From Russula earlei (lineage: Eukaryota > Basidiomycota > Agaricomycetes > Russulales > Russulaceae): DNA of 64,000 bases. Both the position numbers and the translations under genes were made by a program. Each line of letters starts with the position of its first letter. The first letter of the stretch is position 1. This document shows positions 34,824-37,667 of the stretch, one piece after another. The notes under the pieces were generated by a model, which saw nothing but the letters and a program-made list of their open reading frames with translations, was not told the DNA's origin and made no database searches. The DNA lies in NCBI GenBank assembly GCA_025769875.1, contig JAGFNK010000023.1, positions 62,001 to 126,000 on the forward strand, read 5' to 3'.

Positions 34824-37667
34824 ATGCGCAGGAGGAAAGTCAGAATCACAGGTTAGCCTATTTTTTCTCAGCCCACTTTTCGTCCCATCGGGTCACACAC
34901 CACCACTTCCTAGTCGTTGCTGCAGATGGCGTAGCCAAAAGCGATGCCCTCCGGCTTCCTGACCCATTCGTCGTTCTCACTGTCGACTTGGAACAAACAC
35001 ATACGACGACGGCAATCGAGCAGACGCTCAATCCCTGCTGGAATGAGCACTTTGATGTGTTCGTCCTTTTATTTTCTCTCTCTCGTCCTGTGCTTACTAG
35101 GCATGCTCTTCTATGACCAACATTCAGTATGGTCAAGGATTCCTCCGTTGTAGCTGTCCAGGTATTCGATCAATGCAAGTTCAAGCAACGAGGTTCCCTT
35201 GAAGGCTTGTTGAGTACCGTCGATATTCAAGTAGCTCAATATCTGGATTTTGAACATGGCGGCCATAGTATGTCCTTCTCCAGTATAAGGACTGTGTCAT
35301 TTTCTCCTTTCATGACCAAGCAGTACATTCATTGCAGACACGGTGGAATTGGATCTTAAAACGTCGAACGACAACGGCGATTTCGTGCAAGGCAAACTTA
35401 CACTTGAACTCTCTACAGATTTCGGTGCTCCAGCTCCAAATTCACGAACAGCGGGATCATTTACTACCAATCTGACAGACGACTTGAGCCCTTCGACCAA
35501 CAACGCGTTTGGGTCCGAAGCTGCCGATACATCTGCTGACCTCTCTCGCATCACGAATCCTCACGCCTCTCCTTCTGGGACATCCGAGGCCACGCCAGTG
35601 GCAACGATTCCCACACCTGTTGTTCCGAGAAATCAAGGACCTGAACAACAGCAGGATCAACGCGATAACGCAACTGGTGCTATCAGTACCGGTGTCTCCT
35701 CGGCCGCTCTTCATTCCTCGCAGAGCGCGTCGAGCTCCGCCGAGTCCGCTCCTGGTATTGTCTCACTTGGAACGACACTCGAATCGAATGATTCTGCGGA
35801 GCATAGCCCCAGTGTAGCTGGGAATGAATCTGATTCGCTTCCTGCGGGATGGGAACGTAACGTTGACACTCTTGGCCGAACCTACTATGTTGATCACAAT
35901 ACACGGAGCACTACATGGAACTCGCCCTCTTCGAACGTTGCTACCTCTGGGAATGCTGAATCCGGAGCCAGTCGCGGTGCGACCACAGCACACTCGGGTG
36001 ATTTACCTGCTGGATGGGAAGAGCGCCACACTGCCGAGGGTCGGCCCTATTATGTAGATCATAACACGCGCACGACCACCTGGGTGAATCCACGACAGAC
36101 AATCACCGTCATGGGACCGAATGGCCAGAGTACGTCTCCCCAACCGCAGATGATGTCGCAACTCGGTCCATTGCCGTCCGGGTGGGAAATGCGACTTACT
36201 TCGGGAAATAGAGTGTACTTTGTTGATCACACCACCAGGACGACAACGTGGGACGATCCACGGTCGCGGCCGTTGTTGGATGCAAATGTGCCGCAGCACA
36301 AACGGGATTTCCGCCGCAAGGTGGTCTACTTCCGTTCCCTGCCTGCAATGCGCATGTACCCAGGAAGCTGCCGAATCCAAGTTCGGCGGGACCATATATT
36401 TGAGGACAGTTATTCCGAAATAATGCGAAGGACACCCAGAGATCTCAAAAAGCGACTCTTTATCACGTTTGAAGGAGAAGAGGCACCGGATTTCGCGGGA
36501 CCTGCAAACCTCAAGTTGGTTGTTCAGCAAAAGCCTTTCTACGTACTGACCTCACACTCTGATAGAGAATTCCTTTACCTACTTCCGCATGAGATGTCAA
36601 AGCCCTCAAACGGCCTTTTCGAATATTCGGCACATGACAACCGTTCAATGCAGATCAATCCCAGTTCTGGCGTCAACCCGGAGCATCTCAATTATTTCAA
36701 GTTCATCGGACGCGTCCTAGGCTTATGTACATTCCACCGACACTTCGTTGAGGTCCCTTTGTCCGTTTCTTGCTATAAAGTCATCCTAGGGAAGAATGTT
36801 ACAATAGCAGATCTCGAGGACGTGGATGCCGAGTTGCACCGCAAGCTGACATCGATCCTGTAAGCCGTCGTCCTTTATATTTCACTCCTTCATGTAAATC
36901 TCGTCGTGCATGATCCTCACCTATATTTTCCAGAGACAGCGAGATCACTGACGGGACAGACGAAAGTTTTACAACAAAGGAGGAGCGCCTTGGCGAGATG
37001 GTCACAATTGAACTCAAGCCAGATGGTAGCAAAATCCCTGTCACGGAAGAGAACAAGAAGGAATACGTTGATCTCGTTGTCGATCGCATCCTAAGACAGC
37101 GTGTGAGGGAACAATTTGATTCTCTCATAAGTGGTTTCCATGAGTTGATACCTCGGACCTTGAACGAGTTGTTCGATGAACGTGAGCTTGAGTGGCTCAT
37201 TGGTGGAATGCCCCCTAGTCGATGTGTATGTTATCTCTCTATTTCCAATCGTCGTGCTGAAACTTTAATGTTAGGGATGACTGGATCGAGTTCACCTATT
37301 ACGTTGGGTACTATGCTACCGATAAAGTGATTGAATGGTTTTGGAAATGCATACGTTCGTGGTCTCCAGAGCGCAGATCACGATTACTGCAGTTCGCAAC
37401 CTGGTACCTCGCGGATTCCTGCCAATGGCTTCAATCAGTTGCAAGAGTCAAACGGACCATGTCGCTTTACAATTGAGAGAGCAGGGGACCCGGACGAATT
37501 ACCGAAGAGTCGCAAAGGGTTGAACGGTATTTACCTTCCACCTTACGAGGATTATACAAGCTTAGAGGACAAGCTGACGCTTGCTATCGAGTATGTCTCT
37601 GTTTGCCTTAGTATTTACTGCTGATTGACATTGCTATAGAGAGCTTGCTGGGTCGGAACCGGAATGA
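34824..37667 (+). CDS. Rsp5/Nedd4 paralogue with inactive HECT domain
   Basis: Diverged tandem paralogue of the 28833-31842 ligase with the same exon phases. It starts MRRRKVRIT and joins to VVAADGVAKSDALRLPDPF (C2). Three WW domains are intact: LPAGWERNVDTLGRTYYVDH, LPAGWEERHTAEGRPYYVDH and LPSGWEMRLTSGNRVYFVDH. In the HECT domain, DYGGLAREF of the sister is altered to DFAGPANLK-EF and the intron donor has moved 9 nt. The catalytic TCF is replaced (LPKSRKGLNGIYLPPYEDY, no Cys), and the C-tail reads EELAGSEPE, without the Phe at -4 needed for ubiquitin transfer. Extra bases at the C5 run 37211-37215 and at 37400-37401 shift the frame before and within the C-lobe. It is either a pseudogene or a binding-only pseudo-ligase. 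Confidence 0.82.

Follow-up and report, generated by a model that had tools for sequence, protein, structure and literature searches.

Russula earlei is an ectomycorrhizal mushroom whose assembly comprises 66.6 Mb in 1,374 contigs. We analysed a stretch of 64,000 nucleotides from one of them, contig C23 (hereafter, the window), which carries two RSP5/NEDD4-type genes in tandem, copy A and copy B, with a gap of about 3 kb between them (Table 1). In the gene models made in this analysis, copy A has nine exons and copy B has eight; all seven introns of copy B run from GT to AG, and they match seven of the eight introns of copy A. A Pfam search of the NCBI model of copy B recovers a C2 domain (1.3e-11), three WW domains and a HECT domain (5.1e-45), so that copy B shows the domain order of the NEDD4/Rsp5 family (C2, two to four WW, HECT), with the C-lobe exons following across two frame shifts. 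Its closest solved structures by sequence are those of yeast Rsp5 (4LCD and 3OLM). The initial annotation had proposed a second RSP5/NEDD4-type paralogue at this position, and both the domain search and the grouping of copy B with RSP5 orthologues bear this out. An assembly-wide DNA search with the 3′ part of copy B returned no matches beyond copies B and A.

Table 1. Features of the tandem RSP5-type locus, in window positions
Feature	Window position	Contig position	Strand	Basis
Copy A, RSP5 with HTCFN and FGQE (NCBI model P0020, 824 aa)	28833..31842		+	
Copy A, one-base shift in the N-lobe, probably an assembly error	30918..30919		+	
Copy B, tandem RSP5 paralogue without the catalytic Cys (NCBI model P0003, 689 aa); ATG at 34824, TGA ending at 37667	34824..37667		+	gene models, Pfam
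Copy B, exons 1-3, C2 domain; loop RDQGFLG -> RGSLEGLLS	34824..35267		+	
Copy B, WW1, core residues intact	35838..35927	C23:97838-97927	+	
Copy B, WW2, core residues intact	36003..36092	C23:98003-98092	+	
Copy B, WW3, core Trp/Tyr/His/Pro intact, one Asn>Thr	36171..36260	C23:98171-98260	+	
Copy B, HECT N-lobe region (approximate, introns included)	36288..37210		+	
Copy B, first one-base shift relative to copy A (in a run of C just ahead of the C-lobe exons), of uncertain status	37211..37215		+	
Copy B, last two exons, HECT C-lobe part, tail GSEPE	37275..37667		+	
Copy B, second one-base shift relative to copy A, status uncertain	37400..37401		+	

The genome holds a third ligase, which is complete, P0123 on contig C75 (813 aa, with HTCFN and FGQE), which belongs to an older paralogue group; among the matches listed, P0123-like proteins occur in Auriscalpium, Amylostereum, Artomyces and other Agaricomycetes. 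Beside P0123 lie P0160 and P0164 (L030:3049-4305 and L030:7277-8518; at about 77 and 81 kb), both of which have kept WW1 and have no HECT match. P0160 also has a C2 domain and, by eye, the second WW domain of each lacks its Trp. Their dN/dS is 0.82 when compared with each other, not different from 1, and 0.49 and 0.43 when compared with the C75 ligase, below 1. Copies without a HECT match have therefore also arisen at another RSP5 locus of this genome; P0160 and P0164 resemble copy B as tandem RSP5-type copies, but differ from it in belonging to the older paralogue group, in the missing Trp of the second WW domain and in these dN/dS values. Two further features of the window are recorded here. 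A segment of about 166 bp between copies A and B (33763-33928) is 89% identical to C46:21560-21719 and is possibly a short mobile element, and the minus strand at 40029-42518 holds an 830-aa open frame rich in ankyrin repeats, whose units are near-identical in DNA.

As far as its sequence tells, copy B is by its descent and domain architecture a member of the NEDD4/Rsp5 family, but one without the residues that define an active HECT ligase. The catalytic loop reads SHTCFNRIDLPP in copy A and SRKGLNGIYLPP in copy B, where a Gly codon (37517-37519) stands in the column of the catalytic Cys (TGC in copy A, 31685-31687); the Cys is present in all 17 A-type orthologues compared. The tail has changed from GFGQE to GSEPE, placing Ser at the −4 position, where 15 of the 17 orthologues have Phe and the other two have no letter. 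In the N-lobe, GLDYGG has become APDFAG, altering the DYGG motif to DFAG. These are the three losses that the initial annotation had listed (a catalytic segment without Cys, an FGQE-type end without its −4 Phe and an altered DYGG), and all of them are present. The family sequence is thus kept with the catalytic motif absent, as one would expect of a pseudo-HECT protein. All three WW domains retain both Trp, the Tyr/Phe pair, the Asp, the His and both Pro, with the single substitution in WW3 given in Table 1, and the altered C2 loop has cost one Asp.

We also compared the ubiquitin-binding exosite of the N-lobe, whose seven sites were located by eye on the 3OLM alignment, counting with an offset of 380; the letters found there were the expected ones at all seven. 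Relative to copy A, copy B carries N513K, Y516N, F618L and R651I (yeast Rsp5 numbering) and retains Y521, while the positions of I537 and V621 are Val and Met in both copies. In a study of yeast Rsp5 (PMC9282857), ubiquitin binding is abolished by Y516A, F618A and V621A/V622A and reduced by N513A, Y521A and R651A. By this comparison, copy B has lost most of the N-lobe exosite as well. The exosite is changed in related copies too: at Y521 in P0017, at Y516 and Y521 in P0021 and P0111, and at R651 in P0096.

The C-lobe of copy B is not one open frame in the assembly, being interrupted by the two one-base shifts of Table 1, and its NCBI model stops at the first of them, ending in PPSRCG. We compared the window's contig with its haplotig C867 over window positions 13614-23618, outside copies A and B, since no haplotig was found over the two copies themselves. 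Across 9,953 aligned bases there are 12 mismatches, 38 single-base indels and 9 longer indels; the extra base lies on the window's contig in 33 of the 38 single-base indels, and 24 stand beside the same base. Open frames are interrupted in both directions by eye: one of 487 aa on C867 does not stay open in the window's contig, and C867 in turn shows breaks elsewhere. As controls, we tried five near-identical contig pairs with chaperonin or HSP70 genes, of which four aligned, the fifth doing so over only 22 bases; their indels and mismatches number 15 and 5, 3 and 12, 2 and 7, and 3 and 0, and every indel is one base long. The noise is uneven, as the 813-aa ligase on C75 reads without a shift. 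Copy A has a shift of its own, and reading across it gives a protein of 850 aa, 26 residues longer than P0020; this shift is probably an assembly error, by which the P0020 annotation has probably been misled. Taken together, copies A and B have three one-base insertions over roughly 5 kb of exon sequence, which does not exceed the noise of the contig.

Consequently, the frame shifts prove little: the contig carries many extra single bases relative to its haplotig, and the 'active' copy A is shifted too. We rejected them as proof that copy B is a pseudogene. The candidate disabling lesions of copy B are the two one-base shifts, which cannot be told apart from assembly errors, and we infer that they are such errors. 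Because single extra bases are in excess and break open frames, a frame shift found anywhere in this window should be treated with caution.

Selection on copy B was estimated by pairwise maximum-likelihood dN/dS between copies A and B (GY94, 792 aligned codons, stepping over the shifts). The ratio is 0.29 for the whole gene, 0.18 in C2, 0.15 in WW1-3, 0.42 in the linker, 0.27 in the N-lobe and 0.26 in the C-lobe; every one of these domains departs significantly from a ratio of 1 (2ΔlnL of at least 10.7), and copy B has no stop in the 792 codons. Over most of its history, copy B has therefore not evolved neutrally as a pseudogene would, and the uniform neutral evolution that the initial annotation had named as evidence against its proposal was not found. 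In neutral simulations (400 runs per setting, with the copy B branch set to half of the dS of 0.83, the codons of copy A as the ancestor and the frame continuing across both shifts), full neutrality on the copy B branch predicts 19.9 stops, and a neutral share of 10% already lowers the probability of observing none to 0.05. Thus, copy B was constrained coding sequence over some 90% or more of its history, and a short recent neutral phase is allowed. The purifying selection is an average over that history and may cover a time when copy B was still active, before the loss of its Cys. The equal dN/dS of the N-lobe and the C-lobe (0.270 and 0.262, p = 0.92) fits a late loss of catalysis.

We counted changes at sites that are invariant in the 17 A-type orthologues (among the 120 matches listed). 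Copy B has changed at 17 of 79 such sites in C2, 10 of 86 in the WW domains, 65 of 219 in the N-lobe and 31 of 105 in the C-lobe, and copy A at 2 of 79, 0 of 86, 3 of 219 and 0 of 108, respectively. Nearly all change is therefore on the side of copy B (96 of 324 invariant HECT sites, versus 3 of 327 in copy A). Within the C-lobe of copy B, the catalytic loop and tail are mildly enriched for change (11 of 22 versus 20 of 83, p = 0.033). The initial annotation had held that exactly the residues of thioester chemistry were lost, which overstates the case given how many other N-lobe and C-lobe sites have changed; its statement that the key C2 and WW residues were spared stands for the WW cores, and does not hold throughout for C2, with its changed invariant sites and altered loop.

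It had further said that purifying selection on the WW part together with a relaxed HECT part would support a decoy role. The dN/dS values do not separate the parts significantly: the WW domains and C2 are lower than HECT as a whole (0.27), with p = 0.105 for WW versus HECT and p = 0.19 for C2 versus HECT, and copy B shows no sign of a C-lobe relaxed by itself. At invariant sites, the WW domains of copy B are less changed than its N-lobe (p = 0.001), while C2 versus N-lobe gives p = 0.19. The same comparison across related copies varies. P0017 shows no contrast (WW 11/86, HECT 22/156), P0111 a weak one (6/86, 22/155, p = 0.14) and P0021 a clearer one (5/86, 26/162, p = 0.025), where the counts may include a few non-HECT residues of the ORF tail; P0021 and P0111, whose sequences are known without a C-lobe, count as paralogues here because of how far they have diverged and where they fall in the trees. 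P0096 runs in the opposite direction (WW 12/86, N-lobe 16/219, p = 0.08), lacks the key Trp in WW1 and WW3, and has a C-lobe more changed than its N-lobe (20/104 versus 16/219, p = 0.002). Pooling the five paralogues gives p = 0.004 for the WW contrast, and p = 0.23 when copy B is left out.

Copy B has relatives that have also lost the catalytic Cys. Two R. decolorans proteins, the A-type P0005 and the second copy P0096, presumably lie on one contig of 392,227 bases, and P0096 has Ser in place of the Cys. A search with the C-lobe of copy B gave 46 ORFs, with C in 17, W in 19, S in 4, R in 3 and Y, G and D in one each at the Cys column. We rejected the 19 W cases as Cys losses; these sequences end or run into intron-like text after SHT or AHT, and we judged them to be exon-end artefacts. 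The 10 with Ser, Arg, Tyr, Gly or Asp show no insert of this kind and continue through the catalytic site. A C-lobe tree was built from 39 rows, comprising 15 full-length proteins, 20 of the 46 ORFs, P0096, P0123 and copies A and B; its bootstrap had not fully settled. In this tree, P0096 and the environmental ORFs P0247, P0248, P0251 and P0255, all with Ser at the catalytic site, form one clade with support of 95/90 and 74-86% identity among members. Copy B and P0288 (Arg) join this clade at 91/82. Because the Ser copies are one clade, the change from Cys to Ser most likely predates their split. Their C-lobe frames are open, although environmental ORFs enter the database because they are open, and we infer from the trees that these ORFs come from Russula. 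The environmental ORFs P0256, P0283 and P0284 (Tyr, Gly and Asp) are further Cys-less C-lobes that group with P0243 (Cys, FGQE) apart from the Russula group (93/86), and the two Arg sequences P0258 and P0261 have no firm place; in other fungi, too, RSP5 copies may have lost the Cys.

The trees of longer regions place copy B among the Russula copies with less agreement on its nearest relative. In the full-length tree, copy B falls within a group (97/99) of nine RSP5 rows from Russula and the environment and pairs with the environmental ORF P0017 (99/97), which is known without a C-lobe, and P0096 groups with the R. decolorans copy A and P0021 (95/95). The tree of the WW domains and N-lobe is mostly unresolved, and copy B and P0017 are not sisters there; a single clade of the five paralogues is compatible with these data (p-AU 0.474). 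Gene conversion between the tandem copies could mislead both trees. Since the change from Cys to Ser is common to P0096 and the four Ser ORFs, which form one clade, Cys-less RSP5 copies seem to persist.

These observations are best accounted for, in our judgement with about even confidence, if copy B is a maintained, non-catalytic RSP5 paralogue that arose as a tandem duplicate. The pseudo-E3 reading of the initial annotation draws support from the missing residues of catalysis, the overall dN/dS and the related copies, and loses it where it relied on differential sparing of the WW domains, for which the signal is weak. Lacking the catalytic Cys, the −4 Phe and most of the exosite, copy B most likely yields a C2-WW-(pseudo)HECT protein without catalytic activity. 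This protein would use its three intact WW domains to bind the PPxY motifs of the adaptors and clients of active RSP5, and its C2 domain, with one conserved loop altered, would recruit it to membranes. It would then buffer or shield these clients instead of ubiquitinating them. Such a role presumes that copy B is expressed and binds PY motifs and membranes, and it would place copy B in competition with copy A and with the ligase on C75.

The chief alternative, which we regard as a genuine but tentative possibility, is that copy B is a dying gene that long retained full or partial ligase activity, lost its catalytic residues only recently and is now decaying, with the two frame shifts as real lesions. 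The equal dN/dS of the two lobes leaves no long phase in which only the C-lobe was free, as this history would require, and both shifts lie within or just before the last 118 or so of 802 codons; the simulations leave room for a neutral period of up to about 10% of the branch, and the Trp is gone from two WW domains of the R. decolorans copy. However, the absence of stops, the match of the shifts in type and direction to the extra single bases of the contig, the shift in the conserved copy A and the existence of Cys-less relatives as one Ser clade of five diverged sequences all speak against it.

It is unlikely that copy B instead encodes a truncated C2-WW-N-lobe protein, a natural analogue of the WWP2 isoforms that lack HECT, owing to shifts that are real and old, although the NCBI model ends at the first shift, no stop precedes that point and the WW domains are the least changed part. 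If the shifts are real, the product would indeed be the 689-aa protein of that model, but the C-lobe beyond them has a low dN/dS and no stops in its continued frame, which is unexpected of sequence long untranslated, and assembly noise accounts for the shifts. That copy B remains a ubiquitin ligase through another Cys or mechanism is highly improbable: its HECT sequence is largely kept, both lobes are under purifying selection and two Cys occur elsewhere in the C-lobe part (FWKC and NGPC), but the catalytic loop (without any Cys), the −4 Phe and the exosite have all changed.

Beyond copy B as a maintained non-catalytic paralogue, we put forward, only tentatively and with some doubt, that Russula carries a lineage of long-lived pseudo-HECT RSP5 duplicates (the Ser clade of five and the Gly copy of R. 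earlei) that outlived speciation and tune RSP5 as binders of PY motifs and membranes.

Several known systems bear comparison. Copy B is like the Rsp5/NEDD4 ligases in its C2, three WW and HECT domains and its descent from Russulaceae RSP5, and unlike them in lacking the catalytic Cys and the −4 Phe and in its altered exosite and DYGG motif. WWP2-N and other HECT-less isoforms of the NEDD4 family carry binding modules without ubiquitin transfer; these are isoforms of an active gene, whereas copy B is a separate gene in which much of the HECT sequence is kept. The HECT domain of human G2E3 has been described as inactive. Among the UEV-type E2 variants, Mms2 (PMC10211241) and UEV1 (PMC7647121) are described as having no catalytic Cys and keeping partner binding; they are E2 variants and copy B is of E3 type, with the missing catalytic Cys in common. 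The 2023 review that covers Mms2 (PMC10211241), with reference to Murphy et al. 2017, notes an apparent lack of pseudoenzyme counterparts among HECT ligases and takes it as a hint that their catalysis is essential. Among the matches listed, the titles and abstract openings of the literature on HECT pseudoenzymes and pseudoligases gave no report of a pseudo-HECT, and a literature search found no relevant report on the R. earlei genome or on HECT duplication in Russula.

An RSP5 copy that lacks the Cys and whose history shows purifying selection, together with a clade that changed Cys to Ser, offers a natural test of the view that HECT catalysis is essential. If true, a pseudo-HECT lineage would run counter to the published view that pseudoenzymes are absent among HECT ligases, and its copies would be ready-made, non-catalytic binders of PY-motif proteins.
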